From Lachnospiraceae bacterium (GTDB lineage: Bacteria > Bacillota > Clostridia > Lachnospirales > Lachnospiraceae): 58,057 nucleotides of DNA. This document shows, one piece after another, positions 6,435 through 24,690 of the stretch. The notes under the pieces were generated by a model. That model did not search any database and had not been told where the DNA came from. It was given only the letters and a program-made list of their open reading frames with translations. Location of the stretch: contig JAGAQJ010000065.1 in assembly GCA_017622845.1 (NCBI GenBank), forward strand, positions 1-58,057, in the 5' to 3' direction. Within the stretch, counting starts at the first letter, position 1, and each line of letters starts with the position of its first letter. The translations under genes and the position numbers were made by a program.

Positions 6435-7022
6435 CTACTTTTCTTTTTTGTAATAAATTAATCCCAGCTGCGCTACGTACCCTCCGTTTCCTCCGGTTCC
6501 GGCATTGCCGCACAAGCCTTTAAACTCTCCGCCCTTGGGAATCTCAAGCTTGAAATCCGTACCGCCGCCCCAGCTGCCAAAGGGTCCGTAGGTTTTTCCT
6601 TTTACGGTCTTGATGACAACCTTTGCAAAGGATTTGCCGCCGCCGAAGGAAATCCCCTTTCTGCCTTGTATTCCTGCAAGACTGTCACCGTCCTCAAACC
6701 GGATTACCTGCTCTTGCCCTCCGAAGCTGCTGCCATGCAGAGGCCCTCTCTCGCCGTCGGTATAAAGCACCTGAATCGCATCGATAATTCCTCCGCTGCG
6801 AATGACAATTCCAGCCGGCTGCTTCTGCTTCTCTCCGATGAGCTCCGATTCGTCAAAATCCCTGCCGCTTTTGGTTCCCTCCGGACCTGCTTTGTGATAG
6901 TTTCTGCCCTCTGTCATTGCACCGGACAAGCTTCCCATAATATCAGCGTCTCCCGATGCTTTTTCCTTTCCAAACATTCCTGTCAGCCCGTCAAGTCCCT
7001 GTGTAATTTTATCTGTATTCAT
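6435..7022 (-). CDS. Jacalin-like lectin domain protein
   Basis: 195 residues. After a 65-residue polar N-terminus, the segment from about 70 to 190 has the beta-prism pattern of jacalin-like lectins: GGIIDAIQVLY, RFEDGDSLAGIQG, KTYGPFGSWGGG, FKLEIPKGGEFKGLCGNAG, and a C-terminal LGLIYY strand. Such domains bind carbohydrates. There is no signal peptide, so it is made in the cytoplasm. The start has AGGAGGATTTTT. It is the last gene of a long minus-strand array after two DUF2589 genes and a lysin. Sugar target and role are unknown; a lectin that recognises cell-wall or host glycans after lysis would fit the context (inference). Confidence 0.75.
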   Translation of the reverse strand: MNTDKITQGLDGLTGMFGKEKASGDADIMGSLSGAMTEGRNYHKAGPEGTKSGRDFDESELIGEKQKQPAGIVIRSGGIIDAIQVLYTDGERGPLHGSSFGGQEQVIRFEDGDSLAGIQGRKGISFGGGKSFAKVVIKTVKGKTYGPFGSWGGGTDFKLEIPKGGEFKGLCGNAGTGGNGGYVAQLGLIYYKKEK

Positions 7023-7054
7023 AAAAATCCTCCTGTCTTATGCGACTGCATGCT

Positions 7055-8257
7055 CTAATTCTCTCCTGACTTCTGCGTCTTTTCCGGAAGAGCAGCCGTC
7101 CTGCCTGCCATAGCATCATTATACTCGGCTTTCTTGCTAAAGAGGTCATTTTCCAGCTTGCTTACATTTCTCTGGTTATTGACAGCGTTCTGCTGTGCTG
7201 TTTCCATTGCCTTGTAATATGTTTCGCTGCTGTCGTAGCTCTTTGCGGCGCCCTCATTGTCCACCGCCTTTAGTGCAAACAGATCAGACACACCCTCCGG
7301 CATATTCTGGCTGTCGGCAATCATCTTCACAAAGTCGCCCGCCTGATTTTGGAATGCGCCCCAGCTTTGATTGATACTGTCCATCGTCTGTGTGTAAGCC
7401 AATGCCCTCTTATCGCTTTCCTCACGCTGCTGCTCAATCTGTCTTTTCTCCTCCTCAGTCGCGGCATTTTTCAGTCTGTTGTCAAATTCCTCTCTGTCAA
7501 CGCTGTTCTGCAGACGGCTCATAATCTCCCTGTAAGCATTGAGCTGGGCGGATGCAACCTTTTTCATCTGTATCAGGCTGCAGGAAAGTCCGTCCTGCGC
7601 GGTTGCCAGACGATTTTCTATCTGGCTGATTTCCTGACGAAGCGCCTTAAGCCGCTCTGCTCTTGCCTTTGCCTGCTCGGAAAGGTTCTGTCCGTTTCCG
7701 TCCTTCAAGGTGCTTCCCACCAGCATCGGCGCTACATTCGCTGCCATCATATCAAGCACTCTTGCAAGCCCCTCCGGTGTCCCATGGTTTGTTGCCCGTA
7801 CATCTACGTGATACTTTGCGGAATTGTCAGAGCTTCTTGTATGTGACTGATGCGCACTGATGCTTCCTGTCACGCTGACCTTAACGATTCCCAGTCTCAC
7901 GCCGCCTGTGATGCTTGCACTCAGGTCCATGCCGGATTCCTGACGCTCGCTCTGTTTTACCTCCATGTCAAAGAGTATGTTCACCTCGTCCACCTGAAGA
8001 TTCGGAATCGGTACGATTGCCAGCATGGGCACGTCTACCTTCATCTCGTCAAGGTTGCTCGTTCCGTCCTCGTTGACGCTGCGTCTCTGATAGCCAAACG
8101 CCGCAGTGCGGACTTTTCCCTCTGCGTCAAAACCGACGCGATTGATAAAATCAGCCGTAGAATTGGCAAGCTGTGTGCCGGCATCTGCTGCCGCACGCAA
8201 GGGCGCTCCGATAAGCTGGTCCATCTGTAATCCTGCAAATTGTTCTGCAATTGCCAT
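7055..8257 (-). CDS. DUF2589 domain protein, long form
   Basis: 400 residues. The N-terminal half matches my memory of DUF2589: LQMDQLIGAPLRAAADA, ADFINRVGF, and the strand-rich VDVPMLAIVPIPNLQVDEVNILFDMEVK, then a glycine-rich strand SASITGGVRLGIVKVSVTGS and the VRATNHGTPEGLARVLDM block. Residues about 205-390 are long charged helices likely to form a coiled coil (RLKALRQEISQIENRLATAQ). No signal peptide or membrane segment. Second-last in the array; a shorter paralogue lies two genes upstream. Molecular function of the family is not known. Confidence 0.75.
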   Translation of the reverse strand: MAIAEQFAGLQMDQLIGAPLRAAADAGTQLANSTADFINRVGFDAEGKVRTAAFGYQRRSVNEDGTSNLDEMKVDVPMLAIVPIPNLQVDEVNILFDMEVKQSERQESGMDLSASITGGVRLGIVKVSVTGSISAHQSHTRSSDNSAKYHVDVRATNHGTPEGLARVLDMMAANVAPMLVGSTLKDGNGQNLSEQAKARAERLKALRQEISQIENRLATAQDGLSCSLIQMKKVASAQLNAYREIMSRLQNSVDREEFDNRLKNAATEEEKRQIEQQREESDKRALAYTQTMDSINQSWGAFQNQAGDFVKMIADSQNMPEGVSDLFALKAVDNEGAAKSYDSSETYYKAMETAQQNAVNNQRNVSKLENDLFSKKAEYNDAMAGRTAALPEKTQKSGEN

Positions 8258-8303
8258 AATAATCCCTTCTTTCTGTTTGTATTTTATATTTGTAACTTAT
8301 GTG

Positions 8304-8660
8304 TTACCGTTTGTTTTTGCGGCACGCTTCCCTTGTAGCCGAAACGTGTCCGTTTCTGTACTGCGTACCCTGTCTGTCAAAGCTTCGGCGGCGCCCGATG
8401 ATATGGTATGCCAGCCTGCGGATACGGCAAAGCATTCGTGCAAAAAAGCCTGCTTTCTTCTGTTCCTGCGGATAAGATATATCCATGACAGCAATGCTCT
8501 CCACAAAAAGGACTTCTCCCTGCGTTTCCTGTTCCAATAACAGCCGCAGGTTCATCTCTGCTGCCAGCTCCTTTGCATGAAAAAGGATTTCCTGCTTCAC
8601 CCGTTCCTGTTCTTGGGCACGTTCTATTGCCTTTTCTTTCTTTGCAGCGTTTTTATTCAT
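8304..8660 (-). CDS. Small basic protein of unknown function
   Basis: 118 residues from the ATG at 8660, which follows AAAAGG and overlaps the preceding DUF2589 stop by 8 bp; a TTG at 8678 would add six residues. The N-terminus is a charged helix (KKEKAIERAQEQERVKQ), the middle a strand-like LLLEQETQGEVLFVESIAV, and the tail is strongly basic (RMLCRIRRLAYHIIGRRR). I recognise no family. The position between two DUF2589 genes suggests it works with them, perhaps as an adaptor or nucleic acid/membrane-binding partner (inference). Confidence 0.6.
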   Translation of the reverse strand: MNKNAAKKEKAIERAQEQERVKQEILFHAKELAAEMNLRLLLEQETQGEVLFVESIAVMDISYPQEQKKAGFFARMLCRIRRLAYHIIGRRRSFDRQGTQYRNGHVSATREACRKNKR

Positions 8661-9531
8661 AATCCTTTTCCAAGCCAAACTCGATTTCCTTGTTCATAAT
8701 TTTTTCCTGATATTCCATGATGCGGTTGGCAATATTAGACTGCGCCATCAGGTACTTATCCTTGTCAAACTCTCTGGTGTCCTCTTCAAAAGCATCGTAG
8801 CTAATCTGCTGCAGCCGCTCCTGCTCGGCAATCATATCCGTAATCTTTTGGTAGAGCTGCCTTAACCGCTTAATCTTTGCCTTCATCTTGGATACCTCCT
8901 GCCATGTATTCTTCTGGTCATCGCTTCCCAGATTGCCGTCCACCGCTACCGGCGTGGTATCTGTTTTCTTTGCTATCTGGTTGGAACTGAGCAGGTCTGT
9001 CAGGCGCAGAATCCCTTCTGTTGCCGGCAGGGAGCTAATCTGCATCTTATATGTAACTCTGGGAAGAAAATCGCTTTCCCTCTGCTCAGGAGAACAGATA
9101 CGGGCAGTAATGGCACATTTTCCTTCGTCGCTTTTTTCTGCCTTCACCTCCGTGGAAAAGTCAATCTCCGCCTTCTCTACGTTGAGATTTGTGATGGGAA
9201 CTATCGAGAGCAGCGGTACCTGCATCTGCAGATTATCCACGCTGTATCCCTCCTCTCCCTCGGGACGGACCTGCTCATAAGCAATGTTAATATTATTCAG
9301 CCGTACCGTCTCCTCCGTACCATTCTGGCGCAGCGTTCCCATGCTTTTGATGGCATCTACCACCTGCGCACGAAGCTGCTGATTGGATTTTGCAAGCGCA
9401 TGAAGGGGGGCATACACCAAATCATCTAACGGGATAAAATCACTTTCCTTAAATCCGCCGCCCGAGCTGTCCTCCCCCTCCTCATCGCCCTCATAATATT
9501 CTCCGCCATAATACTTTTCTTCGTCAGCCAT
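8653..9531 (-). CDS. DUF2589 domain protein, short form
   Basis: 292 residues. An acidic, tyrosine/glycine-rich start (residues 1-25) leads into the DUF2589-type core: FIPLDDLVYAPLHALAKSNQQL, then LQMQVPLLSIVPITNLNVEKAEIDF, the same block order as in the 400-residue paralogue. The C-terminal third is charged helix (MKAKIKRLRQLYQKITDMIAEQERL). AAGGAGTGTAGGAC precedes the start. The two paralogues could form a hetero-oligomer (inference). No secretion signal. Confidence 0.68.
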   Translation of the reverse strand: MADEEKYYGGEYYEGDEEGEDSSGGGFKESDFIPLDDLVYAPLHALAKSNQQLRAQVVDAIKSMGTLRQNGTEETVRLNNINIAYEQVRPEGEEGYSVDNLQMQVPLLSIVPITNLNVEKAEIDFSTEVKAEKSDEGKCAITARICSPEQRESDFLPRVTYKMQISSLPATEGILRLTDLLSSNQIAKKTDTTPVAVDGNLGSDDQKNTWQEVSKMKAKIKRLRQLYQKITDMIAEQERLQQISYDAFEEDTREFDKDKYLMAQSNIANRIMEYQEKIMNKEIEFGLEKDYE

Positions 9532-9591
9532 GTCCTACACTCCTTCATGAAACGCAATCATTTCGATGCCTTTACTCCTGCATCCGCTTCT

Positions 9592-10974
9592 CTATTTCAA
9601 AAATAATGCTCTTTCCTCTTCTCTCCTGCGTACCAGTCCGGCAAGCACCTTTCCGCCTCCTTTATTGTACTGCAGCATCGTCTCCGCAATTGCGGCGGCG
9701 CTTCTTCCCGTGACCAGCTTCTGCAGGCTTCCGTTTCCGCAGTTATAGCAAAAGCTGGTCAGTGCATCAAACTGATTCTGCGACAGCGGAAAGGTAATCA
9801 GTCCCTTTTTGAAACAATTGTTTACATATCCGCCGTATTTTTTCAGGTCTTCCTTTAGCAGCGCCTTTGCCGCCTCCTGCGAGGGAAGCTTGTCCCCGGA
9901 CTTCACTCCCTGCGTATGCCCGTACCCGATTGTCCATATGCCGGCAGGGCATTTATACGCCTCCAGACGGCACCCTTCATACTTGGCAATCAGCTCCACG
10001 CCGCAGTCGGAAACCGCCATTTCCCCCGATTCATTTGCCTTAGCTGTTTTTTCACCTTCCGTGTATCCGACGTCATAGGCTGCCTGCGGCACGGAAACAC
10101 TGCACTGCAGACCGATAGCTGCCGCAATCAGATATTTTACATGCACCGGACTGCAGATAGACTTACTTTCGCTGACATTTTTGTCAATTACTGCCCGGTC
10201 GCCGCTGACGGATTTGACAATCCACTTGTCATTTTTCACCCAGTCCGGTATCTCCTTTCCGGTGTAATACACTGCATCGGAAGCCAGCATCACAATATCT
10301 CCTGCCTGCAAAGCTCCGTTGTTTTCCTTTGGAGCGCTGCCTGTCAAAAACTCGTGTATTTCCTTTTGTGCATCTCTCTGCTGCCCTGACGGCAATGACA
10401 TCCTGCCGTTTCCCATCGCTGCACATACATCTCTGCGGAAGCCGTCCATTGTATAGCCGCTCTGCAGTCCGTTCCACAAGTGGTCAGGGTCTGCGTGGCC
10501 TGACGCAATGCCTCTGTCATGTCCTTCCTTATGACTGATAATCACACCATCCGCCATCGGATTCAGCTGAAACTTCTCACACAGAAACGCAAACAGTTCC
10601 ACCGCTGCATCATATGTACGCTTCACCACGGCAAGCGCCGTCTCCCTGTGGGAGCAGACAAATGCCGAACCGCCTGTATACCTGATGCAGGCAGGCTCAC
10701 ACATTTCCACGCCGATATAAGAATTGTTGGAGCTGCCGCCGCCATGCCATGCGCGGTAATCCCAGGGAAGGGTCTGATAGACTTTTCCTGTATTGCCGTC
10801 AATAAATGCATGCACACACGCCCTTGCTTCCTCAGGGCGGTTCCACTTGCGCACGAAGGTTTCCGCCGACGGCTGCGGACAGCCTACGCTGTGCAGCATC
10901 AGTCCCTTTACCGTAATTCTCTTTCCAGCCTTATAGCATGGATTATTTGTTAAAATACTCTTAATAATTTCCAT
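9592..10974 (-). CDS. Two-headed cell-wall lysin: N-acetylmuramoyl-L-alanine amidase plus GH24 lysozyme
   Basis: 460 residues in three parts. Residues about 20-185 form an amidase_2 domain with zinc-ligand candidates H28 (GLMLHSVG) and H160 (ASGHADPDH). Residues about 222-285 look like a small SH3-type beta domain (LQAGDIVMLASDAVYYTG). Residues about 320-460 form a phage-type GH24 muramidase with catalytic E333 in KYEGCRLEAY, TIGYGHT, and the QFDALTSFCYNCG block. It would cut both the peptide bridge and the glycan of peptidoglycan. No signal peptide and no holin gene nearby. AAAGGAGAACAATAG precedes the start, 1 bp after the LytTR gene stop, so the two are coupled. Confidence 0.88.
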   Translation of the reverse strand: MEIIKSILTNNPCYKAGKRITVKGLMLHSVGCPQPSAETFVRKWNRPEEARACVHAFIDGNTGKVYQTLPWDYRAWHGGGSSNNSYIGVEMCEPACIRYTGGSAFVCSHRETALAVVKRTYDAAVELFAFLCEKFQLNPMADGVIISHKEGHDRGIASGHADPDHLWNGLQSGYTMDGFRRDVCAAMGNGRMSLPSGQQRDAQKEIHEFLTGSAPKENNGALQAGDIVMLASDAVYYTGKEIPDWVKNDKWIVKSVSGDRAVIDKNVSESKSICSPVHVKYLIAAAIGLQCSVSVPQAAYDVGYTEGEKTAKANESGEMAVSDCGVELIAKYEGCRLEAYKCPAGIWTIGYGHTQGVKSGDKLPSQEAAKALLKEDLKKYGGYVNNCFKKGLITFPLSQNQFDALTSFCYNCGNGSLQKLVTGRSAAAIAETMLQYNKGGGKVLAGLVRRREEERALFLK

Positions 10975-10975
10975 T

Positions 10976-11683
10976 CTATTGTTCTCCTTTCGTTCTTAAA
11001 ATGCTTTTTCTGATGTCACAATATCGCTTCACCGGAATCTGAATCGTCTCCGTATTGTCCATTTCTGCATAACACCGCGCAATTTTACGGACATGCCTGG
11101 TGTTGACAATAAAGCTCCGCTGAACCCTGATAAAGCTTTGCGGCAGTACCTTCTCCATCTCCTTTAAAGAGCCTACCGACTCCACTTCAAAATATTTGCA
11201 GTGCCAAATAATATGATTATGGCTTGCCTCCAGATAAAGCAGTTCATCTTCCTCAATAAAAAATGCTCTTTCCCTGATGTCCTTGATATAAAGCTCCAAT
11301 CCGCTGTTTCTGTCCTGAGAGATATGTAAATGCCTGATTTTCGTTTTTCCTCTGCTGTCCCGCTTTAAAACCATTGTATAGCACATCAGTTCTTTTTTAG
11401 CACGGTCATGCTCCCACTCCACATGGTAGCTTCCTGAGAGAATGCACAAGTCATTTGTCTGTTCCACGATGCTGCATGATTTGTGGCGGATTTTATGAGC
11501 CTGCGCCTGAAGCGTTTTCAGGTATGCCTGCACTTGAGCAGGATAATGCTCCTGACTGTTAAACGGTGTCCACAGCTGCGTATCGGAAGCCAGAAATCCT
11601 GCTGTAAGAAATGCTTCTCCCTGATATAATGTGTCAATAATGCTCATTGCTGTTTTTCTTAAACTCTCTTTATGTTCATCCAT
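10976..11683 (-). CDS. LytTR-family transcription regulator with N-terminal NTF2/SnoaL-like domain
   Basis: 235 residues. The C-terminal half (about 130-232) is a LytTR DNA-binding domain: EDELLYLEASHNHIIWHC, then LPQSFIRVQRSFIVNTRHVRKI. The N-terminal 125 residues are not a receiver: they read like a cone-shaped NTF2/SnoaL fold (helical start, FLASDTQLWTPFNSQEHY, then strands ILSGSYHVEWEHD and TMVLKRDSRGKTKIRHLHIS). So the input is probably a small ligand or dimer partner and not phosphorylation (inference). It stands directly before the lysin and probably controls this array. Confidence 0.78.
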   Translation of the reverse strand: MDEHKESLRKTAMSIIDTLYQGEAFLTAGFLASDTQLWTPFNSQEHYPAQVQAYLKTLQAQAHKIRHKSCSIVEQTNDLCILSGSYHVEWEHDRAKKELMCYTMVLKRDSRGKTKIRHLHISQDRNSGLELYIKDIRERAFFIEEDELLYLEASHNHIIWHCKYFEVESVGSLKEMEKVLPQSFIRVQRSFIVNTRHVRKIARCYAEMDNTETIQIPVKRYCDIRKSILRTKGEQ

Positions 11684-11832
11684 CTTTTCTCTTATGTCTG
11701 TGCCCTCCGGTTGTTTTTACCATCATAAAACGGCAAAGCCGTCAACTTACAATCCGCAGAAGCAACCGTGCAAAAATGCTCACAAACTTTTACAGTTTGG
11801 TCTTATGGCATTTTATTTCCGGAATTATACTG

Positions 11833-14013
11833 CTATAAATCCTGTTTTTGTATGGTCAGGCAGTTTTTATTCCCGGCGTATTCATATATGACCCTGTCCA
11901 TGCGCTTCTTAACCAGATAGATGCCAAGCCCTCCCTCCTTTCTCTGTTCCCAGGCTTCTTCTATATCCGGGTCCGGTTTCGCTAAAGGATTATACGGGAT
12001 TCCATCATCCTCAAAGCACAGCATTACGTTTCTGTGCTCCTGTTCATCCACGCGCACTTTGACCGTAACCTCAGCGGCGCCGCTGTAATAACAGATATTG
12101 GAAAAGATTTCATCTGCTGCCATTAAAATTTTGATGCGGGTCCGCATCGTTACGCCTTTTTCCGCCAGACACTCCTCGATAAAGGCTGAAAACTCCCGGA
12201 TATACGCCATGTCCGGCTTTCCGGTCTTCTCTGCAAAGCCGTTCCCCAGATAAGTGACTGCCAGCAGTGTAATATCGTCAAACTGCTCTGTCCCCTTCTG
12301 AAAAATTTCTACATCCTTCCACACTGCCTGTATCAGCTCTGAAGGAGATGCCGGACTGTCTCCGCTGCTTCCTGCCACGTCCTTAAGCCGTTCTTCTCCA
12401 TACAGCTTCTTTTCAATGCTTGTCGCTTCCGTCACGCCGTCGGTATAAAGCAGCAGGGTATCTCCCGGATGCAGACGGAGACTGCTCTGTTGATACGGCG
12501 CTTCCTCCATGCCTGCAAGCACCAGACCTCCGCGAAAAGTGTCATACAGGCAGGCGCCGTCCTTACGGCGAATCAGCGGCCGGCAGTGTCCGGCATTGAC
12601 AAAGACAAGCTCGCCGGTGGAGAGCGTCAGCACGCCAATCCACGCTGTGACGAACATTCCGTTTTTATTGTTAGCGCACAGGCTGTCATTAATCTCCATC
12701 ACCGCATGCGCCAGCCGGTTCTCCGTTTCCGGTGCTCCTTCCCATTCTTTTGCAGCGCTCATCAGCCTGCTTTTCATCAGGGTACGGGACACCACCATAA
12801 ACAACGCCGCCGGAACGCCCTTGCCGGACACATCTGCCATGACAAGCGCGAGCTTGTCCTCTCCCAGCAGAAAAAAGTCATAAAAGTCTCCGCCCACACC
12901 CTTTGCAGGCGTCATAGATGCCGCGAGCAGAAAGTCTGTTCTGTTATTAAAAATTCCGTCCGTCGTTGGCAGCATGTCCGCCTGCAGACGGGAAGCCACA
13001 AGAATCTCCGTGCGAATGCGCTCCTTTTCCGCCATAATCGAAGTAATATTTTGAATATACTGCTCTACTTCCTCAAGCATAATTCCAAACGCCGACGCAA
13101 GCTGTCCTGTTTCACCGGAGAGTCTGCCCAATTCCCCACACCTCATCGTCCATTGCTCCAGATTTTTTTCATGTGCCAGCTTTGTTTCCCCGCTCTCTGA
13201 CAGGACATCTCCCCTTCGCGCATATGCTGCCGCAATTTTGCAAAGCTCCTCAATCGGAACAATTATTTTTTTCTCCATATTCTGCAGAAAGCAGACGGAC
13301 AGGCCGCACATGACGAAAAAATCCGCAAATACACAGATATAAATGCTGTTCCACAGCTTTAACGGGTCCCGAACCGTATCAGCCAGCGCTGCATAGGACA
13401 GGACTCCTGCCAGCGCTGCCGACACTACGCTCAGCAGAAGAAAAATCAGTACAAACCTTACATTTAAGGTCAGCACGTTTCTCCGCCCCAGTCCTCCTGC
13501 CAGACGGCACAGCAGAATCATCGGAATGCCTAACAGAACAGAAAAAACAAGGTTGTTAAAAAACAGCAGCAATGTAGACTGCGACAAAGCTTTTCCCATG
13601 CCGAGAAGCTGCAGCATGCTTCCCAGGACTGCCGCCATCAGAAGGGTGTCTGCAAAAATAATCCACAGATATCGTTTCACATCTGCAACGCTGCGGAAAT
13701 ACGGACCTTCTTTTCTTTTCGCTTTTCCAAACCCATGCCATAGTACATAGGGCAGCCAGCCATATAAAAACTGTGCAGCAAAACCGTATATGCAGACCGG
13801 AGCTGCATACCCTGACAAGATATCCGCCCCCAGATTTCCAACTGCACAGCCCAGCGCGCCCGGCACCCCAAACAGCATTCCAAATACCGGCGGAAACGCG
13901 CCTGCCGGACGCACCTCCGTCAGTCCTGCCATTGCAAACAGTCTTCGGAAGGGCATTGTAACCGCAAAGAATAATAAGGCAGTCACACAAAACACAGTTC
14001 CTTTTTTACGCAT
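11833..14013 (-). CDS. Membrane SpoIIE-type PP2C phosphatase fused to a HATPase (anti-sigma kinase-like) domain
   Basis: 726 residues. Residues 1-245 hold about seven membrane segments, including GLTEVRPAGAFPPVFGMLFG shared with the next gene. A HAMP-like helical linker (245-340) leads to a PP2C/SpoIIE domain (340-590) with metal-ligand aspartates in GGDFYD (D376), ADVSGKG (D394), YTDGVTEA (D525) and FDDIT. Residues 605-722 are a HATPase of the RsbW/SpoIIAB type: ADEIFSNICYYS (N box), FEDDGIPYNP and EGGLGIYLVKK. One chain thus could dephosphorylate and rephosphorylate a STAS protein such as the one at 16141. No sigma factor gene is in the window. AAAGGAGGGAAAAAG precedes the start. Confidence 0.9.
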   Translation of the reverse strand: MRKKGTVFCVTALLFFAVTMPFRRLFAMAGLTEVRPAGAFPPVFGMLFGVPGALGCAVGNLGADILSGYAAPVCIYGFAAQFLYGWLPYVLWHGFGKAKRKEGPYFRSVADVKRYLWIIFADTLLMAAVLGSMLQLLGMGKALSQSTLLLFFNNLVFSVLLGIPMILLCRLAGGLGRRNVLTLNVRFVLIFLLLSVVSAALAGVLSYAALADTVRDPLKLWNSIYICVFADFFVMCGLSVCFLQNMEKKIIVPIEELCKIAAAYARRGDVLSESGETKLAHEKNLEQWTMRCGELGRLSGETGQLASAFGIMLEEVEQYIQNITSIMAEKERIRTEILVASRLQADMLPTTDGIFNNRTDFLLAASMTPAKGVGGDFYDFFLLGEDKLALVMADVSGKGVPAALFMVVSRTLMKSRLMSAAKEWEGAPETENRLAHAVMEINDSLCANNKNGMFVTAWIGVLTLSTGELVFVNAGHCRPLIRRKDGACLYDTFRGGLVLAGMEEAPYQQSSLRLHPGDTLLLYTDGVTEATSIEKKLYGEERLKDVAGSSGDSPASPSELIQAVWKDVEIFQKGTEQFDDITLLAVTYLGNGFAEKTGKPDMAYIREFSAFIEECLAEKGVTMRTRIKILMAADEIFSNICYYSGAAEVTVKVRVDEQEHRNVMLCFEDDGIPYNPLAKPDPDIEEAWEQRKEGGLGIYLVKKRMDRVIYEYAGNKNCLTIQKQDL

Positions 14014-14075
14014 CTTTTTCCCTCCTTTGCGGCAATCATCTGCCGCGCCGACATCTCACAGCAGCAATTCAGCCA

Positions 14076-14780
14076 TTATATAGATAGCAGCATAAGCAGA
14101 ATCAATGACGCTCCCGACAGTATCCTCATCCACAGATGCTCTATAGGGTTACTGTGAAAAAACAGGATGCCTCCGCAAATCACCAGCATCAATGCCGTAT
14201 AAACTGCCGGAAGCACTGCTTTTGCTGCCCTGCCTCTTAAAATCAGATACCTGCGCGGCGCAGGACAGCAGGATATCTCCACACAGTCTGCGGTCAGCAT
14301 GATGAGAACCGGCATTCCCAAGCCAATCGAAAACCCAAGATTATTGAAAAATACATAGCGGTAAATTTCCTCATACCATATTTCCTCCATCACATAAAGT
14401 CCGATAGAGAGAAACCACGCGGAAGTCATGGCGCTGACTGCACAGACAAAGCAATAACAGACAATATTTCTGCTGCTGTGCAGATTCGGCGCTTCCTTTC
14501 TGTACAGATACCATAACCGGTAGGGAAGCCATGCTGCCGCAAAATTTCCGATGATTCCCAGTATGGAAGCTTCGGAAAATGTCCCGGCCATATCTGCAAG
14601 CAAGTTGCCCAGTCCGCATGCCGCTGCTCCTGTGAATCCCCATAAAAGCCCGGCTACCGGCGGCACTGCATTGACAGGGCGTACCTCTGTCAGCCCCTCC
14701 ACCAGCACCATCGCCTTAAAAGAAATTCCTAACAGTAAAAATGCTCCTAACGTTATCATAAATTTTTTTGTTCTGCTCAT
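14076..14780 (-). CDS. Membrane sensor-like protein, paralogue of the phosphatase N-terminus
   Basis: 234 residues, almost all membrane segments (about six). The first half lines up with residues 1-170 of the SpoIIE-type protein next to it: GLTEVRPVNAVPPVAGLLWGF, GAAACGLGNLLADM, IIGNFAAAWLPYRLWYLY and FFNNLGFSIGLGMPVLI. The pattern recalls S components of ECF transporters (QueT type), which suggests a small-molecule-binding membrane fold (inference). It ends where the phosphatase HAMP linker would start, so it is a free sensor domain. ATGA overlap with the transporter gene upstream shows coupling. Confidence 0.72.
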   Translation of the reverse strand: MSRTKKFMITLGAFLLLGISFKAMVLVEGLTEVRPVNAVPPVAGLLWGFTGAAACGLGNLLADMAGTFSEASILGIIGNFAAAWLPYRLWYLYRKEAPNLHSSRNIVCYCFVCAVSAMTSAWFLSIGLYVMEEIWYEEIYRYVFFNNLGFSIGLGMPVLIMLTADCVEISCCPAPRRYLILRGRAAKAVLPAVYTALMLVICGGILFFHSNPIEHLWMRILSGASLILLMLLSI

Positions 14781-15673
14781 TTTTCACCTTCCATCTGCTG
14801 CTGACTGCCTGCCATTCCTGCTGTCACTGCCCCTGCCGCAATCAGCACAGCTCCTGCTAAAGACTCATAACGAAAATCCCCGCCTCCTCCATAAGCCGCA
14901 GGCAGCAGCAGAGAAAGAAGCAGTGTGACAATCGGCTCTGTGGACGCAATAACCGTTACACGCAGCGCATCTGTATATTTTTGAGAGAACATCAGTGCGA
15001 TATAAGCATATGCCTTTGTAAAAAACGCTAATATAAAAATGTTTGAAAGCAGTTCTTTTGTAAATGTAATCTCCCTTAAGGCTTGAGGACTTTCCAGGCG
15101 CCACAGAATAAATCCTGTCACTGCCGTGAACGTCATCTGCACGATACAGATAACCAGCGGATCATCTTGTTTGGCATAACGGTCCGCCGCAATCGTATAT
15201 ACCGATGAGCAGAAACAGGCGCCTAACATATATCCGGTTCCCACTGTGCAAAACCCCGTGATGTCAAAGCCATTACTGACACACAATCCAAGCAGAATCA
15301 CGCCTGCGCCTGCCATATGATTCCGCGACAGTTTCTGATGAAGAAAAAGCTGCAGCAGCGGCACCATGAGAATTGTCAGCGATGCAAGAAAGCTGGCATT
15401 GGCAGCCTCCATCATGGCAATGCCCTTTTTCTCCAACAGCAGATTGGCGCTTAATATGATCGACAGCAAAAAACCTCTTCTGCAGGTTCCTGCTGTCATC
15501 TGCCGGAATCGTTTTGCAAAAATGACTGCCATCACAGCTGCTGCAATACCGCAGGTAAGCGCCAGATAAGCATATGAGGAAAATTCCTCCGGCAGATTCC
15601 TGATAAAAATATATGAGGCAGACCAGCAGAGCGTGATGGAGAACAGCAAAATACTGCTTTCAGTCTTTGTCAT
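14777..15673 (-). CDS. EamA/DMT-superfamily transporter
   Basis: 298 residues with about ten membrane segments in two repeats, typical of drug/metabolite exporters: FSITLCWSASYIFIRNLPEEFSSY at the start and the second-repeat block FILAFFTKAYAYIALMFSQKYTDALRVTVIASTEPIVTLLLSLLL. Substrate unknown. It overlaps the previous gene by 14 bp and the next by 4 bp, so it belongs to the array. It may export a metabolite sensed by the adjacent membrane proteins (inference). Confidence 0.85.
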   Translation of the reverse strand: MTKTESSILLFSITLCWSASYIFIRNLPEEFSSYAYLALTCGIAAAVMAVIFAKRFRQMTAGTCRRGFLLSIILSANLLLEKKGIAMMEAANASFLASLTILMVPLLQLFLHQKLSRNHMAGAGVILLGLCVSNGFDITGFCTVGTGYMLGACFCSSVYTIAADRYAKQDDPLVICIVQMTFTAVTGFILWRLESPQALREITFTKELLSNIFILAFFTKAYAYIALMFSQKYTDALRVTVIASTEPIVTLLLSLLLPAAYGGGGDFRYESLAGAVLIAAGAVTAGMAGSQQQMEGEK

Positions 15674-16151
15674 ATTCCTGCTGCTCCTCTCCTGTGCCTG
15701 AATAATAGTAAGAAACAGAGTCTCTTTCTTCTATTAAGATGCTGTTCTGGTTCAGTGCTGTAAGCGACTTATCCATAATTGCCCTGACCGCTTCTAAATC
15801 CGCATTGTGGAAAGAATAAATCAATGTTTTTTCCATTGTGAGTGTTCCCGAGTCGTCTACCCATGCTCCTGATGCTTCCTGCATGGTATAACCGCTGACA
15901 TATTCTAAGCAGATGGCATTCACAATCTCCTGCGCTTCCTCATCAGAGATTCGCTGATGATACTCATCCTTGTCATTCAAGCCTATGTAAATGACATACT
16001 CCTTGTCCGGATTTTCCTGATTCTCTCTGCCGCTAAAGCTTAAATCAGATACGGTGCTGCCTGACACTCCTGTCATAATTGCGATAAAGCACATCAGGAT
16101 ACCCTTTTTCCAATTTACTTCCACAGCTGCCGTGCCCCCGCTATTCCACAT
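15660..16151 (-). CDS. Membrane-anchored DUF3574-like protein
   Basis: 163 residues. A hydrophobic N-terminal stretch (about 17-35, ILMCFIAIMTGVSGSTV) is a signal anchor or signal peptide. The rest resembles DUF3574: YVIYIGLNDKDEYHQRISDEEAQEIV, GYTMQEASGAWVDDSGTLTMEKTLIYSF. The start overlaps the STAS gene by 11 bp, without a clear ribosome site, so translational coupling is likely. Function is unknown; it is the only member of the array with a likely extracytoplasmic domain other than the sensors. Confidence 0.6.
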   Translation of the reverse strand: MWNSGGTAAVEVNWKKGILMCFIAIMTGVSGSTVSDLSFSGRENQENPDKEYVIYIGLNDKDEYHQRISDEEAQEIVNAICLEYVSGYTMQEASGAWVDDSGTLTMEKTLIYSFHNADLEAVRAIMDKSLTALNQNSILIEERDSVSYYYSGTGEEQQEYDKD

Positions 16152-16440
16152 TCAAAATGTCCGCAAAGCCGGTGATGGTAAATACCTCACGTACTTCCTC
16201 ATTGGCACCCTTTACCACCATTGTTCCCTCTTGCTTTTTCATTGCCTTGTGTGCCGCAAGCAGTACGCGCAGCCCGGCAGAGGAAATGTATTCCAGCAGC
16301 GTAAAATCCAGTACCAGATTACCGGTTCCATCCAAATAATCTCTCAATGCTTCCTCAAGCTGTCCGGCTGTCGTCGTGTCCAGCCTGCCCTTTAACTTGA
16401 GCGTCAGCTTCTCCTGCTCTTTCCTTGCTTCAATTGTCAT
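16141..16440 (-). CDS. STAS-domain anti-anti-sigma-type protein
   Basis: 99 residues from the ATG at 16440, which follows AAGGAGGAGATACCGC and overlaps the upstream stop (ATGA); the longer frame would be an unsupported extension. It is a bare STAS domain: LTLKLKGRLDTTTAGQLEEAL, LVLDFTLLEYISSAGLRVLL, with the conserved phosphorylatable serine in the SSAG motif (S53/S54). Family role: binds a HATPase anti-sigma kinase when unphosphorylated; phosphatase of the SpoIIE type restores it. The 726-residue protein carries both opposing activities, so this is its probable partner. Confidence 0.9.
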   Translation of the reverse strand: MTIEARKEQEKLTLKLKGRLDTTTAGQLEEALRDYLDGTGNLVLDFTLLEYISSAGLRVLLAAHKAMKKQEGTMVVKGANEEVREVFTITGFADILNVE

Positions 16441-16727
16441 GCGGTATCTCCTCCTTCTTGTTCCTCCCACCCGGGTTTTCTCACAAAACCCACGTGGTAT
16501 GTGATTTTTTCCATTGTCAGCTCATGTTCTCCGATTAAATATCTGCCTATCGTAATATCTTTTCCGATAATCATTCCTTTGGGATAATCGTTAAGACATT
16601 TATTGAGCAGAGCTGCCTGAGCCTCCTTTGCCTGATCTGACAGGGGATTGTTGGGATTGACACTGCCTATCGGCACCAGCTTGATATAGTGGATATCTGT
16701 CAGTGCCGTTTTTTCCTCCTTGTTCAT
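16437..16727 (-). CDS. Conserved-looking small protein of unknown function
   Basis: 96 residues, first gene of the array. Readable parts are IHYIKLVPIGSVNPNNPLSDQAKEAQAALLNKCL, MIIGKDITIGRYLIGEHELTMEKITYHVGFVRKP. No membrane segment or signal. I do not recognise a family; the compact alternation of strands and helices suggests a globular domain. AAGGATAGGATC precedes the start. The stop overlaps the STAS start. Confidence 0.6.
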   Translation of the reverse strand: MNKEEKTALTDIHYIKLVPIGSVNPNNPLSDQAKEAQAALLNKCLNDYPKGMIIGKDITIGRYLIGEHELTMEKITYHVGFVRKPGWEEQEGGDTA

Positions 16728-16969: not shown

Positions 16970-17432
16970 GTTTTTGCTTTTATGCATCTCTATCCGGACG
17001 AAAACTGCAGATAGTATCCCTCAGACTGCCATTGGTTCCGAATGGGAATTTCCTAATACGATGAATCAAGGCTTTCTAATGAGCACGGAGCCGGCTCGAG
17101 TCGGCATCCATGCCTCCGTCTCCAACCTGATGATTTATCATCGTATAAGGAAATATCACCATTCTCCACCGAGGCATTCTACGGGATACTATCTGCAGTT
17201 TTCTGTTCATTAAAACCATAAAATGGAACAGTTGTCAGTACACAGAAGGTCGGCAGTTCGATGTCGGTACAGGCTGGCGGAAAATGCTGACATTTTCTTA
17301 TGGGTGATTCGATATGCAGAGAAAATCCGGCATCACCCATTAGAAAATTCGCATTCGGAGTCCAATCGCCTGTACCGGCATAGGACTGCCGACCTTCGTC
17401 CTGATTAAAATATCCATACGGCTGAACTGTTA
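16970..17432. repeat. Intergenic repeat, family 1, copy A (long form)
   Basis: About 460 bp. The right end is GGCTGAACTGTTA (17420-17432); the left end is degraded. Nested inverted repeats include a perfect 21-bp pair (arm around GAAAACTGCAGATAGTATCC and its complement at about 17184-17204), the central AGCCGGCTCGAGTCGGC hairpin, and a GAAGGTCGGCAGT/ACTGCCGACCTTC pair. A module around TTATGGGTGATTCGATA is shared only with copy B. It sits between the divergent array and terD promoters. Confidence 0.75.
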
Positions 17433-17588: not shown

Positions 17589-18611
17589 ATGATAAATGTA
17601 GCGGTGAAATCAAAGGGTACCATAGACCGCAGCTCTATTCTATCTATCAATGTACCTGATCCGCAGAGCGTGAAAAATCAAGGAAATATCCAAACTCTGA
17701 TGCGGCATCCGCAAAATCAGCCGCAGTACTCACAGCCTGACACCTCGCACGCTCAGCCGCAGTACTCACGACCTGACGCGCCGCAAAATCAGCCGCAGTA
17801 CTCACGACCTGACGCGCCGCAAAATCAGCCGCAGTACTCACGACCTGACGCGCCGCAAAATCAGCCGTGGTACTCACGACCTGACACCTCGCACGCTCAG
17901 CCGCAGTACTCACGACCTGATACCTCGCACGCTCAGCCGCAGTACTCACAGCCTGCCATGACATGTGTTTCGCAGCCGCAGACTGTCCAGCCTGCCTTCA
18001 CTTCCGCTATGCAAAATACAGGAAGCATTGCCTCTTCATCTGTCATAAAGCCGATTCCCACACTGCAAAACAAAGTGCAGAAGGGGCAGAAGACACTGCT
18101 TTGCGCCACACCGCTTGACGCCGTCAATGCCTGCTTTGGGTGGAATACGACGGACAGCAGATGTGATGTTGATGTGTCCGCTTTCCTGCTCGGCGCAGAC
18201 GGCAGGGTAATCGGAGATTCCTGGTTTGTATTTTACGGTCAGACGCTCAGCCCCGACCAAAGCACAAGATTTACAGCAGACAGCCCGACAGACCGCGAAA
18301 CAATCCAGATTAACTTTAAAAAACTTGACAGCAGTGTCAAAAAAATCGTTTTTGTACTGACCATCAATGACGCACTGGCAAACAGGCTGCATTTCGGAAT
18401 GCTCAAGGATGCCTATGTCAGAATCATGGATTCAGCGGGAAATGAGCTTGTCAGCTTTATGATGACGGAATACTACAGCAATGTAATCTCCATGATGATT
18501 GGTGAACTTTATCAGCACAATGGAGCATGGAAATTTAATGCCGTCGGAAACGGTGTCGCAAAGGACCTTGCCGGTTTATGTGAATTATATGGCGTACAGG
18601 TTATCGATTAG
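17589..18611 (+). CDS. terD: TerD-family protein with N-terminal tandem-repeat extension
   Basis: 340 residues. Residues 44-127 are seven 12-residue repeats (consensus QPQYSRPDAPQN), a Pro/Gln-rich low-complexity linker. Residues about 155-340 are a TerD domain: LCATPLDAVNACFGWN, CDVDVSAFLLGADGRV, VFYGQ, LHFGMLKDAYVRIMDSAG, MMIGELYQHNGAWKFNAVG. TerD domains bind calcium in stress-response (Ter) complexes; here some acidic residues of the usual DNLTGxGDGDDE loop are replaced by FTADSPTDRETI, so calcium binding may be weakened. A ribosome site GAAGGAG precedes the start. Encoded with the AIM24 gene, divergent from the rest. Confidence 0.9.
   Translation: MINVAVKSKGTIDRSSILSINVPDPQSVKNQGNIQTLMRHPQNQPQYSQPDTSHAQPQYSRPDAPQNQPQYSRPDAPQNQPQYSRPDAPQNQPWYSRPDTSHAQPQYSRPDTSHAQPQYSQPAMTCVSQPQTVQPAFTSAMQNTGSIASSSVIKPIPTLQNKVQKGQKTLLCATPLDAVNACFGWNTTDSRCDVDVSAFLLGADGRVIGDSWFVFYGQTLSPDQSTRFTADSPTDRETIQINFKKLDSSVKKIVFVLTINDALANRLHFGMLKDAYVRIMDSAGNELVSFMMTEYYSNVISMMIGELYQHNGAWKFNAVGNGVAKDLAGLCELYGVQVID
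17718..17969 (+). repeat. 36-bp tandem repeats inside terD (7 units)
   Basis: Seven in-frame 36-bp units coding QPQYSxPDxxxx. Units 2-4 are nearly identical at the DNA level and units 5-6 carry the TSHA variant, pointing to recent unit duplication and copy-number change. Confidence 0.9.
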
Positions 18612-18620
18612 GAGGATTTT

Positions 18621-19352
18621 ATGTTAACTTTTGAAATTGTAAACGAATTAACCCTGAAGGTTACCTGCAGAGGAAATGATGTCCTGTTTGCAAAGGCAGG
18701 TTCTTTTATCTGCGGTGAAAACGGAGGATATAAGAATTATAAATTTGAAAAGCTCCTGCTTGGTCCCCAGCAGAATATGGGACAGGCGCTTTGGGGTTCT
18801 ATTGTAAGACGTGTAACAGGTGAAAACCTTCCTCTGATGAAGGTAATGATGAATGGCGACAGCATTACATATTATGCAAATCACAGTCAGCATGTAGTTG
18901 TATACCAGCTTCAGCAGGGTGAAGTGCTCTCCATTGAATCGGAAAATATCCTTGCATTTACCCCGGACTGCAAATATGATGTGCGTTTTATCGGCTGCGG
19001 CGTTATCTCGCAAAAGGGACTGGCAACCTCAACCCTTACAGGCATGGGGCCAAACGCATATGTTGCTGTCTTAGTCGACGGAAATCCTATCGTGCTGAGC
19101 AACATTCAGTCAGGCGCCACGCTTGCCGTTGACCCTGATGCTGTCGTATGCTGGATGGGTGCAGGTCCCTGTGATCCTGACATCAAGATGGACGTAAACT
19201 GGAAAACCTTTATCGGACAGTCCTCCGGTGAATCTTATAGCTTTGAGTGGGGAGGACACCAGCCTGTTTCCGTCATTATCCAGCCAAGCGAACGTAACAG
19301 CGGTGTCAGCATAGGCATGGACGGCGGCCGCCTCGGCAGCAGACCAAACTAA
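18621..19352 (+). CDS. AIM24 family protein
   Basis: 243 residues, the usual size of bacterial AIM24/TIGR00266 proteins, a beta-rich fold often found beside TerD genes. Recognisable parts: VLFAKAGSFICGENGGYKNYKFEK, GENLPLMKV, VVVYQLQQGEVLSIESENILAFTPDCKYDV, GPNAYVAVLVDGNPIVL, PDAVVCWMG. No signal or membrane segment. It starts 9 bp after terD behind TAGGAGGATTTT, so the two are one operon. Its biochemical role is unknown; the context indicates the Ter stress pathway. Confidence 0.85.
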   Translation: MLTFEIVNELTLKVTCRGNDVLFAKAGSFICGENGGYKNYKFEKLLLGPQQNMGQALWGSIVRRVTGENLPLMKVMMNGDSITYYANHSQHVVVYQLQQGEVLSIESENILAFTPDCKYDVRFIGCGVISQKGLATSTLTGMGPNAYVAVLVDGNPIVLSNIQSGATLAVDPDAVVCWMGAGPCDPDIKMDVNWKTFIGQSSGESYSFEWGGHQPVSVIIQPSERNSGVSIGMDGGRLGSRPN

Positions 19353-19366
19353 ATTGTTATTAACTA

Positions 19367-20194
19367 TCAATGCCTGCTTCTGCAGATTTGAAGTACGCTC
19401 TCAAGCACTGCTTCTGCGTACAGCCTGTCTGCAGGCGGGCATTTTACATGAACAGAAAAATCATGTTTCCGCACAAGCTCCGGTGCAGCAATCCCATAAT
19501 CGGCTGCTTCCAGCATGGATATATCAAATTCGCTGTCGCCTGCCGCAATCACACAGTCAATTCCGGTACAATTTTTCACAGCATGTTCCTGCTGCTTCCT
19601 GTCTTTTCCCACATTCACATTATCACGAATATAAGACCGGAATCTGTCTACGGCGTTTCCCTTGCTCAATGTCTTTGGCACCACATAAAGCTTTGCACCA
19701 TTATGAAAGACATCGACGACTCCCGCATCCAGCACACTCTTTAACTCCTCAACTACAGACTCCGGTTCTTCACACTTCGTAAATACAAACAGCTTCCTGA
19801 TAAATCTCAATTCAAAACATCTTCTTTTATCCTGCTGCAAAAATGCAACCGCTCTGGAAAGCTCTTGTTCGCTGTCGCTTACCAGCTCCAATGACTTCTG
19901 ATACCAGTTTTCCTCTTCCTTTCCATCAACAAGAAGCACACCGCCATTGCAAGCCAGTGCATACCGGAAATCTCCTATTCCTAAATCAATGCGCCTGTAC
20001 TGCTCTATCGTCCTTGTCGTAGTAGGTACAATAACAACTTCTTTCTGTACCTCCTTCAAAAGCCGGTAAGTCTCCTGTGTAATAAAAGAAATCTCCCGTC
20101 CCTGATACACCTCCGTACAACGCTTATCCTCTCCGATATCATGCTTGTAAGAGTATATTAATGTATTATCCAAATCCGTGTGAAAAATAATCAT
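19367..20194 (-). CDS. HAD-family phosphatase, Ter-associated
   Basis: 275 residues from the ATG at 20194 (GGAG seven bases upstream; an ATG at 20206 is also possible). Motif I is HTDLDNTLIYS, motif II VPTTTRT, motif IV GIDCVIAAGDSEFDISMLEAAD. The cap and order resemble Cof/sucrose-phosphatase-type HAD proteins. It converges on the AIM24 gene with a 14-bp gap. In the comparative-genomics description of Ter systems a HAD phosphatase accompanies the phosphoribosyltransferase and C-C lyase genes; these are present at 30.7-34.1 kb, so a role in that proposed nucleoside-like pathway is likely (inference). Confidence 0.83.
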   Translation of the reverse strand: MIIFHTDLDNTLIYSYKHDIGEDKRCTEVYQGREISFITQETYRLLKEVQKEVVIVPTTTRTIEQYRRIDLGIGDFRYALACNGGVLLVDGKEEENWYQKSLELVSDSEQELSRAVAFLQQDKRRCFELRFIRKLFVFTKCEEPESVVEELKSVLDAGVVDVFHNGAKLYVVPKTLSKGNAVDRFRSYIRDNVNVGKDRKQQEHAVKNCTGIDCVIAAGDSEFDISMLEAADYGIAAPELVRKHDFSVHVKCPPADRLYAEAVLESVLQICRSRH

Positions 20195-20229
20195 GCTGCT
20201 CTCCATTCCTTTCTTTCCTTCCCACATCG

Positions 20230-20482
20230 CGGCCCACGAGGCGCTTTAGCGACCTTTTCCCCTGCATGGAGCTGTGCTATTGAGAAGAAGAATCACGGGG
20301 ATGCACAGAACAAAAGCAGGCAAGCCTGCTCTCAGCTCCCCAACCCCTCACTCATGAGGGGCTTGCTTGCTTTTGCGCGCCAGATGCGGTCACATAGTGA
20401 CATTTTCCATACGCATCTGTGCGCATCCTGCCGGAGGCTTTTATGATATAGGAAAATGCGAAGCACTTTCCTATATCATAAA
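20230..20482. repeat. Structured intergenic region with nested palindromes
   Basis: No gene. Contains ACAAAAGCAGGCAAGCC against GGCTTGCTTGCTTTTG, CCCCTCACTCATGAGGGG, GGATGCACAG against CTGTGCGCATCC, and a near-perfect stem of about 18 bp starting TTATGATATAGGAAA (20440-20482). The arms nest, so the whole stretch could fold as one long RNA or DNA structure. Confidence 0.5.
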
Positions 20483-20524
20483 AAAGGCTGAACTGTCATG
20501 TCCCCCATGAACGGTTCAGCCTTC
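20481..20524. terminator. Bidirectional terminator built from GGCTGAAC arms
   Basis: AAGGCTGAAC (20484-20493) and GTTCAGCCTT (20514-20523) pair, followed on the minus strand by TTTTTTAT. It ends the P-ATPase transcript. The arms resemble the terminal inverted repeats of the family 1 elements. Confidence 0.75.
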
Positions 20525-20601
20525 TAAAATAGATTCTCTTATCATATCCCGTCAATTCAGCGCATGTCCGAAAGCATAATCGCTGAACTGCTGCCGGAAA
20601 A

Positions 20602-23262: not shown

Positions 23263-23282
23263 TTTTCATTTTCTCCTCATTT

Positions 23283-23870
23283 TTAGATAAATCTGTTTGC
23301 AAGCTCGCCAAGACCCGGGTCATTTGTTCCCTGCCCTATGGCATTGAACTTCCACTCCCCATTGTGTCTGTATATCTCGCCAAAAATCATTGCTGTCATG
23401 TTGGAATAATCCTCTGACAGATTGTACCTGCACATCTCCACATTGTTTCTGCCGTCAACAAGACGGATAAAAGCATTCTGAATCAATCCGAAATGTTGCT
23501 TTCTCTGATATGCCTGATAAATATTTACAACAATGACAATTCTGTCATATTCAGCAGGAATCGCAGCAAGGTCAACAAGAATCTGCTCATCATCTCCGTC
23601 TCCGGCTCCGGTCAGGTTATCTCCCATATGCTGTACTGTTCCTGTCATATGTCTGAGATTGCCGAAATAAACCAAATCCTCCTTCGCACAAAGCTTTCCG
23701 TTTCTCAGCAGAATCGCAGATGCATCACAGTCAATCGGCTGCGGCTTTGGTGCAAAAAGCCCCCTCTTCTGCTGAACCTCATCCCAGCCTAAGCCGACAA
23801 GAACCTTTGAAAGTCCTGCGTTGTCCTTTGATAAGCTTACCTTCTGCCCTTTTTGTAAACTAACTGACAT
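23283..23870 (-). CDS. terD: TerD-family protein
   Basis: 195 residues from the ATG at 23870, which has GGAGGAAAAGAAA upstream; the longer frame adds 24 residues that do not match the family. It starts [20 protein letters not shown] and keeps the calcium loop [17 protein letters not shown]. The first acidic motif, usually DFDLDA, is PIDCDASA here. Third and most diverged of the TerD trio in this operon; the next two upstream are closer to each other. Confidence 0.95.
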   Translation of the reverse strand: MSVSLQKGQKVSLSKDNAGLSKVLVGLGWDEVQQKRGLFAPKPQPIDCDASAILLRNGKLCAKEDLVYFGNLRHMTGTVQHMGDNLTGAGDGDDEQILVDLAAIPAEYDRIVIVVNIYQAYQRKQHFGLIQNAFIRLVDGRNNVEMCRYNLSEDYSNMTAMIFGEIYRHNGEWKFNAIGQGTNDPGLGELANRFI

Positions 23871-23969
23871 TTTCTTTTCCTCCACATTATCTAAACAATT
23901 GCAGCAATTCAGGCAAGACTGAACTGCTTCCAAATGAATCACAATAAACCACTCTGCATCAAATACTAT

Positions 23970-24551: not shown

Positions 24552-24600
24552 AACTCATATCCTCCATTTTCTATATTATAACCATGACTTTCTCATAGCT

Positions 24601-24665: not shown

Positions 24666-24690
24666 CTATATCCATTCTAATCGTTCCGCT

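Follow-up and report, generated by a model that had tools for sequence, protein, structure and literature searches.

Twelve adjoining genes on the minus strand of a 58,057-nucleotide stretch of Lachnospiraceae DNA (contig JAGAQJ010000065.1 of assembly GCA_017622845.1; this whole stretch is called here the window) represent one version of a conserved cassette, which we read, with slightly less than even confidence, as a switch-gated, wall-opening release device. One half of the locus encodes a sensor and a switch, namely a STAS-domain protein and a membrane sensor that carries both a SpoIIE phosphatase and a HATPase_c_2 kinase (the phosphatase/kinase). The other half encodes a wall-degrading lysin and two proteins of the family DUF2589 (DUF2589-A and DUF2589-B) with a small gene between them. 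A 96-residue protein of no known family, u96, belongs with the DUF2589 proteins to the core. The original prediction, made from the window alone, had joined the two halves into a signal-gated release or wall-remodelling device; the halves proved to be conserved as one unit, and we keep the device as the best reading. The source genome measures 3.6 Mb in 76 contigs and is 95% complete.

The cassette in relatives

When the genomes of 84,980 species were scanned, 93 places were found to encode a relative of DUF2589-B, and the best 80 of these were kept and mapped with flanks of up to 10 kilobases (kb). DUF2589-A was present in 78 of the 80 loci, u96 in 75, a lysin match in 50, the STAS gene in 44 and the phosphatase/kinase in 41; STAS and phosphatase/kinase occurred together in 39 loci, STAS only in 4, phosphatase/kinase only in 2 and neither in 35. 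Where the flank was adequate (60 loci, with 3 kb or more in front and 2.5 kb or more behind), DUF2589-A was found in 59 and u96 in 58, and the 55 full-flank loci, with longer flanks, contained DUF2589-A in 54, a lysin match in 40, the phosphatase/kinase in 37 and STAS in 36. Across 83 DUF2589 loci, u96 was present in 78. The usual order in the relatives is lysin, DUF2589-A, small gene, DUF2589-B, u96, STAS, intervening genes and phosphatase/kinase; three relatives' genomes encode amidase and lysozyme in two adjoining open reading frames (ORFs).

The neighbourhood search had been set beforehand as the test of the link between the two halves, and revealed STAS in 35 of the 40 full-flank loci with a lysin versus 1 of the 15 without (Fisher test, 3.6e-8, uncorrected for the relatedness of the loci by descent). 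A tree-based pair test of the same association comprised 3 pairs only and was uninformative. Because of this conserved co-occurrence in relatives, the sensor-switch half and the DUF2589-lysin half belong together as one conserved unit.

The distribution of the cassette is patchy. Of 98 genomes searched, the source genome among them, 13 contain PF11655, and 12 of these 13 belong to a set of 38 from the genus. u96 was found in 7 of the 38, the same 7 that show a long DUF2589-A, and, among 398 genomes drawn from the whole phylum, in 1, the source genome itself; the DUF2589-B profile matched 12 of 397 genomes of the family. Three genus genomes (L036, L037 and L038) hold paired short DUF2589 genes and no u96, perhaps a second kind of DUF2589 locus. 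The trio of DUF2589-A, DUF2589-B and u96 recurs in Lachnospiraceae, in Treponema and other spirochaetes, and in Oscillospiraceae, Defluviitaleaceae and Chitinispirillales records; some contigs, with the record titles Gastranaerophilales, Mollicutes, Anaeroplasmataceae and, in one case, Treponema (L093), may be mis-binned. The trio is also carried by plasmids of Vibrio tubiashii, Vibrio sp. 16 and a cockroach-gut deltaproteobacterium, as two DUF2589-type genes followed by u96. On these three plasmids the profile matches of u96 range from 4e-22 to 4e-27, and those of DUF2589-B are no weaker than 2e-63; for the A copy the match is weak (E about 1e-4) in two, the assignment in L125 comes from the annotation, and both Vibrio plasmids have this copy annotated as DUF2589. 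No u96 match was obtained on Burkholderia and Streptomyces plasmids, which do have DUF2589 genes.

Further genes were noticed beside the trio. The Vibrio plasmid stretches (L123 and L125) also hold coding sequences annotated with TcdA/TcdB-type domain names. An extra small protein of about 95-165 amino acids (aa) lies next to the trio in spirochaetes and Oscillospiraceae (L103:12289-12600, L102:4788-5285 and L108:9580-9999), two examples having no Pfam match, and a recurrent protein of approximately 310-470 aa adjoins the cassette at L074:7446-8855, with related ORFs in 7 more loci; the copies tested from L074 and L096 match no Pfam family.

DUF2589-A is homologous to DUF2589-B (hhalign probability 98.7), and u96 shows 59-78% identity across six relatives. 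The DUF2589 proteins had been proposed as cargo; since they and u96 are the most constant part of the cassette, it is unlikely that they are mere cargo. A strongly hydrophobic segment was found in 0 of 84 DUF2589-B and 0 of 78 u96 sequences, and in 2 of 81 DUF2589-A and 3 of 60 lysin ORFs. DUF2589 and u96 gave no match in PHROGs and, in PADLOC, a weak coiled-coil match only. The AlphaFold2 model of u96 (predicted local distance difference test, pLDDT, 83.8) is a small alpha/beta protein of the order beta-alpha-beta-beta-alpha, and that of DUF2589-B (pLDDT 75.5, predicted template modelling score 0.54) has a helix at residues 12-42, a beta domain, a long hairpin (91-111/136-156; residues 102-146 with pLDDT below 50) and a confident helical bundle at 194-384.

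In the lysin, no signal peptide is visible by eye. The absence of a holin, also part of the original prediction, held in the relatives: a small hydrophobic-stretch ORF of any kind is present in 8 of the 50 lysin loci, these ORFs are mutually unlike by eye, and a holin-like protein is thus not conserved at the locus, a holin encoded elsewhere being possible. Other hydrolases were recognised by Pfam near the trio, namely Amidase_2 (spirochaete L103 and Oscillospiraceae L102), Peptidase_M23 (L108), SLT (Vibrio plasmids L123 and L125), the N-acetylmuramidase PF11860 (L124) and GH108 with PG_binding_3 (L157, an IMG/VR contig). Five hydrolase probes were run over 31 loci that have no typical lysin or lie outside Lachnospiraceae, and matched 13; five of these were the probes' own loci and one, L116, was false. 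Pfam finds in L116 solute-binding-type domains only, and it was rejected as an SLT neighbour.

Proposed switches at the cassette

The window encodes the SpoIIE phosphatase, the HATPase_c_2 kinase and the STAS protein together, as do partner-switching modules (SigB RsbU/V/W; SiaABCD), from which the cassette differs in two ways: a single membrane protein combines phosphatase and kinase, and the module is genetically tied to a lysin. NCBIfam gave sub-cut-off matches to RssB and SiaA. In the relative L043, dCache and HAMP domains precede the phosphatase/kinase instead of the window-type sensor. No sigma factor was recognised within the window cassette. In L098, a 247-aa protein encoded directly upstream of DUF2589-A (8138-8881) is sigma-factor-like by eye, has no Pfam match and could be a kinase target. 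A literature search on partner switching combined with a lysin returned nothing related, judged by title.

A putative second type of control was found in relatives, upstream of the lysin. When up to one mismatch is accepted, the motif ATACGATATT[AT]TG is present as a pair in 26 of the 80 loci, and all 26 pairs are inverted. In total, 1.30 Mb of loci contained 63 motif matches, and the pair was found in 0 of 240 first-order Markov control sequences, which cover this motif and not that of the spirochaetes. The right arm starts at most 115 base pairs (bp) from the called lysin start in 22 of the 26 loci (three just inside the ORF) and 965-1201 bp before it in the other four, and the arms enclose 104-452 bp. 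The far arm carries TTGAC[A/T] followed, after 17 bp, by a TAT-type -10 box within the repeat, a predicted promoter that points away from the lysin in 26/26; in each of the 26 it holds 10-11 of 12 consensus bases versus 6-9 on the lysin side. In six spirochaete loci, which come from five assemblies, the repeat core is different, TAATACAACA[GT]TAT (looser in L106), and the promoter layout is the same: the outward promoter, with 10-11 consensus bases versus 7-9 on the lysin side (6/6), aims at a divergent recombinase. A tyrosine recombinase was detected close to the cassette in 27 of 83 loci (the L066 copy being Phage_integrase by Pfam) and adjoins 18 of the 26 motif loci and all six spirochaete loci (24/32).

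From this arrangement we infer that the repeat pair delimits an invertible promoter, here caught OFF; if the segment were inverted, the promoter would face the lysin. In the loci lacking the motif pair, no ON orientation was seen upstream of the lysin. The repeat could also be a regulator's binding site and not an invertible switch, a separate doubt that we consider rather unlikely: it would account for the single orientation (32/32) and for the 8 of 26 motif loci without a recombinase in the stretch examined, and is opposed by the distance enclosed between the arms in these 26, by the recombinase near 24 of the 32 loci, and by Lachnospiraceae and spirochaete repeats that differ in core sequence and keep the same promoter layout. 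Invertons, the invertible promoters of gut bacteria, often adjoin cell-surface genes (PMC11892184). The relatives share with them inverted repeats around a promoter and a nearby tyrosine recombinase, a likeness seen in the sequence, and differ in the gene behind the repeat, which here belongs to the lysin-DUF2589 cassette. A literature search on invertible promoters with Lachnospiraceae and tyrosine recombinase found none, and one on phase variation with endolysin nothing related among the matches listed.

The window itself has a LytTR gene and lacks the DNA repeat switch; no motif pair was found in the window or the source genome, where recombinases are only distant (25-31% identity). LytTR genes occur in 8 of the 80 loci, in 0 of the 26 with the inverted-repeat motif versus 8 of the other 54 (p 0.049, with only 3 independent pairs), which is suggestive only of LytTR and the inverted-repeat switch being mutually exclusive.

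The locus in the window and its neighbourhood

All twelve ORFs were confirmed on one strand, from 16727 to 6435 (Table 1). As originally described, neighbouring genes overlap or sit close together (at most 62 bp apart), except for a largest gap of 149 bp between the 726-aa gene and the LytTR gene; the overlap sizes partly depend on the chosen start codon. The labels DUF2589 (twice), amidase-lysozyme, LytTR, SpoIIE with kinase, DUF3574, EamA and STAS were all upheld by Pfam, which also gave a sub-cut-off, QueT-like match for the N-terminus of the 726-aa protein. A single DUF2589 pair, Amidase_2 match and Phage_lysozyme match were found in the source genome, all at this locus.

Table 1. Genes of the cassette in the window, listed from 16727 down to 6435.
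Feature	Position	Strand	Evidence and occurrence
u96, 96 aa, no known family, core	16437..16727	-	No Pfam, NCBIfam or PHROG match
STAS-domain switch protein (RsbV/SpoIIAA-like)	16141..16470	-	Pfam STAS 9.8e-20
DUF3574 protein, accessory	15660..16151	-	Pfam 29.1 bits (cut-off 25); 6/80 loci
EamA-family transporter, accessory	14777..15673	-	Pfam 1.7e-26; 6/80 loci
TM234, 234-aa membrane protein, accessory	14076..14780	-	No Pfam match; by-eye resemblance to N-terminus of the 726-aa protein; 5/80 loci
Membrane sensor with SpoIIE (PP2C) phosphatase and HATPase_c_2 kinase, 726 aa	11833..14013	-	Pfam SpoIIE 3.6e-47, HATPase_c_2 5.1e-19
LytTR-type DNA-binding regulator	10976..11683	-	Pfam 8.7e-14
Lysin, Amidase_2 and GH24 Phage_lysozyme fusion, 460 aa	9592..10974	-	Pfam; PHROG endolysin 1.1e-53
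DUF2589-A, core	8653..9531	-	Pfam 59.9 bits (gathering cut-off 23 bits)
Small basic protein, 124 aa, between the DUF2589 genes	8304..8678	-	ORF call; related small gene in 43/83 loci
DUF2589-B with C-terminal helical bundle, core	7055..8257	-	Pfam 142.7 bits (gathering cut-off 23 bits)
Jacalin-like lectin, accessory	6435..7022	-	Profile versus PDB 5.3e-17; 3/80 loci

The gene order of the window, as assembled, is permuted: the block from u96 to the phosphatase/kinase precedes LytTR, lysin, DUF2589-A, small gene and DUF2589-B, with the lectin last, and in the relatives this block lies behind. Closest to the window on the DUF2589-B tree are L042 and L043 (98% in the Shimodaira-Hasegawa-like approximate likelihood-ratio test, quick tree). 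L042 has the order LytTR, lysin, DUF2589-A, small gene, DUF2589-B, u96, STAS, an acetyltransferase-like gene (a label taken from a sub-cut-off Pfam match of the L043 relative) and phosphatase/kinase, and L045 the order lysin, DUF2589-A, small gene, DUF2589-B, u96, STAS, DUF3574, EamA, TM234 and phosphatase/kinase.

The lectin, EamA, TM234 and DUF3574 genes had been presented as fixed parts of the set, which their few occurrences among the 80 loci (Table 1) do not support. The jacalin-like call was upheld by profile: the single window lectin has no Pfam match, 3 of 4 aligned proteins, the window's not among them, match Jacalin, and the four-sequence profile built from the window protein and 3 relatives matched solved jacalin-type lectins in the PDB at 5.3e-17. 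Jacalin-like lectins lie beside the cassette in four loci, L053, L075, L077 and the window. Other neighbours, examples picked by eye as payload candidates, include a Fascin-domain protein in L104 (similar ORFs in 5 loci counting L104), and by Pfam C39_2/C70-like peptidases in L081 and L084, an Exo_endo_phos protein in L083 and an eCIS_core protein in L075; a DUF2464-like protein in L042 and sub-cut-off Glucosaminidase-like proteins in L072 and L045 were also noted. That such neighbours are payload is a guess from their position.

A Ter-type cluster lies at 17589-34065 of the window, with several TerD genes, AIM24, a HAD-type hydrolase, a P-type ATPase (by eye), TelA, two YceG-domain proteins and PRTase/TRSP; one YceG-domain protein has a trypsin domain, and the first TerD has a Pro/Gln/Tyr-rich tandem-repeat N-terminus. 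The proposal that this cluster and the cassette are used jointly was not borne out, as no TerD, TelA, AIM24 or PRTase match was found in the 80 loci with their flanks; P-type ATPases aside, the one match there to a gene of the cluster was of the trypsin/YceG type (L117). A literature search on Ter combined with partner switching found no paper, and one joining Ter, SpoIIE, LytTR, DUF2589 and jacalin returned nothing related, judged by title.

Upstream of u96, a palindromic interspersed repeat of about 235 bp occupies 16977-17210, with at least 38 near-full-length places among 93 genome matches (40 of 160 candidates scored), and a second similar-looking palindrome lies at 17245-17397. Farther away, two adjoining proteins of 535 and 543 aa (34178-35785 and 35962-37593) are alike by eye and have signal-peptide-like starts, and an ORF at 46204-47478 looks by eye like an ABC-transporter ATPase that carries a long Ser/Asn/Gln-rich tandem repeat at its N-terminus.

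A possible release device and its alternatives

A wall enzyme without a visible signal, a core free of membrane segments, the lack of a conserved holin, the partner switch and the outward promoter together fit self-opening by few cells. In such a device the phosphatase and the kinase of the membrane sensor would set the phosphorylation of the STAS protein, which would release or block its partner, be it u96, one of the DUF2589 proteins or a sigma factor encoded elsewhere. Transcription would be off in most cells, through DNA inversion in many relatives and probably through LytTR in the window. In the few ON cells, DUF2589-A and DUF2589-B, the small protein and u96 would assemble in the cytoplasm, and the assembly would help the lysin to reach the wall in place of a holin; the cell would then leak or lyse, freeing leaderless neighbours such as the lectin.

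This scheme recalls the type 10 secretion systems (T10SSs), which are holin/endolysin/spanin clusters outside phages, exemplified by Serratia ChiWXYZ, the system of Yersinia entomophaga and the typhoid toxin muramidase TtsA. TtsA belongs to the GH108 family, and a GH108 enzyme adjoins the DUF2589 locus L157. The cassette shares with T10SSs a phage-like endolysin that is not part of a prophage, leaderless neighbours and what seems to be a design for keeping most cells off, and differs in that no conserved holin was found. The Yersinia entomophaga T10SS is reported to lyse a specialised subpopulation, and the accessible part of the paper describing it makes no mention for T10SSs of a DUF2589-A/DUF2589-B/u96 core, which is a feature of the cassette (PMC10847048). 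We would thus call the cassette T10SS-like in function and not a T10SS by membership, because a holin was sought in it and not found. A bolder version of the release reading, which we hold to be distinctly more doubtful, is that DUF2589-A, DUF2589-B, the small protein and u96 form an undescribed, phylum-crossing lysis-secretion machine, in which a cytoplasmic beta-hairpin assembly would replace the holin, work with each lineage's own hydrolase, be armed in rare cells by inversion or LytTR, be fine-tuned by STAS and phosphatase/kinase, and free leaderless lectins and enzymes.

Several observations weigh against release by self-opening. Neither the DUF2589-B nor the u96 model convincingly matches a fold among solved structures. 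A pore formed by the alternating pattern of the DUF2589-B hairpin was considered and is retained as a conjecture only, the pattern being no stronger than in ordinary strands of the same protein: alternation in segments starting at 109, 112, 115, 124 and 127 averages 1.5-2.2 versus 0.6-0.8 when shuffled, drops to 0.3 (start 118) and 0.6 (start 130), and reaches 2.8 in an ordinary strand starting at 91. No function is given for DUF2589 in the literature searched by full text, with subscription papers mostly outside; the sole paper naming it describes, in its accessible part, a run of short DUF2589-related genes of Archaeoglobus, AF0414-AF0417, up-regulated with lactate (PMC3949148). The hydrolase is not obligatory, as no probe matched in eleven Lachnospiraceae-type loci (some short-flanked) and three Chitinispirillales loci; for M23, muramidase and GH108 there is one example each, and the SLT proteins encoded on the Vibrio plasmids, which have a solute-binding domain as well, may play a housekeeping role. 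As to the switch, the promoter faces the lysin in 0 of the 32 repeat loci, all of which come from metagenome-assembled records, mostly one per species. When the inner segments are compared between relatives, all alignments are same-strand except one weak 31-bp minus match, and L048, L075 and L114 have a recombinase without the promoter-bearing repeat pair, L075 having a third repeat type with no promoter. Where no recombinase is present, as in L054, the outward promoter could simply be that of a divergent histidine kinase gene.

The alternatives nevertheless appear less probable than release. The cassette could be a wall-remodelling or stress operon, in which the lysin trims the cell's own wall on a partner-switch stress signal, with DUF2589 and u96 as an envelope-stress scaffold and no release. 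Regulation of stress responses and of the envelope is where partner switching and LytTR typically occur, and payload candidates vary, several loci showing none that is obvious; since the lysin is phage-endolysin-like without a visible signal peptide, and since a promoter facing away in 32/32 is easier to reconcile with a product that is costly or lethal than with a wall enzyme for housekeeping, we consider this explanation unlikely. Still less likely is an antibacterial weapon that delivers or releases the lysin, lectin and variable enzymes against neighbouring bacteria, with a DUF2589-u96 complex as the delivery particle: the Fascin, C39/C70-like, Exo_endo_phos and eCIS_core proteins and the four jacalin-like lectins would suit it, and it is disfavoured by the PHROGs and PADLOC results, by fold matches that establish no link to injection systems, and by the lack of any immunity gene recognised by eye beside the lysin, for which no dedicated search was made. 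A mobile island, whose recombinase and repeats merely move or rearrange a selfish cassette with the lysin as a phage leftover, would explain the integrase-like recombinase, the endolysin-like lysin, the patchy distribution and the plasmid-borne trios, and is the least probable, given the conserved one-strand gene order, the association of the lysin with STAS and phosphatase maintained across many species, an inverted repeat that flanks a promoter-sized segment and not the cassette, and the lack of capsid, terminase or tail genes recognised on reading the window ORFs by eye (PHROGs was searched with just six window proteins, and only the lysin gave a match).

If the switch-gated release device is real, bacteria from Lachnospiraceae to spirochaetes and Vibrio would have in common a holin-free means of release, and a role that can be tested would be assigned to DUF2589. 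From the DNA-inversion design one would expect that, in gut commensals, rare cells open themselves.

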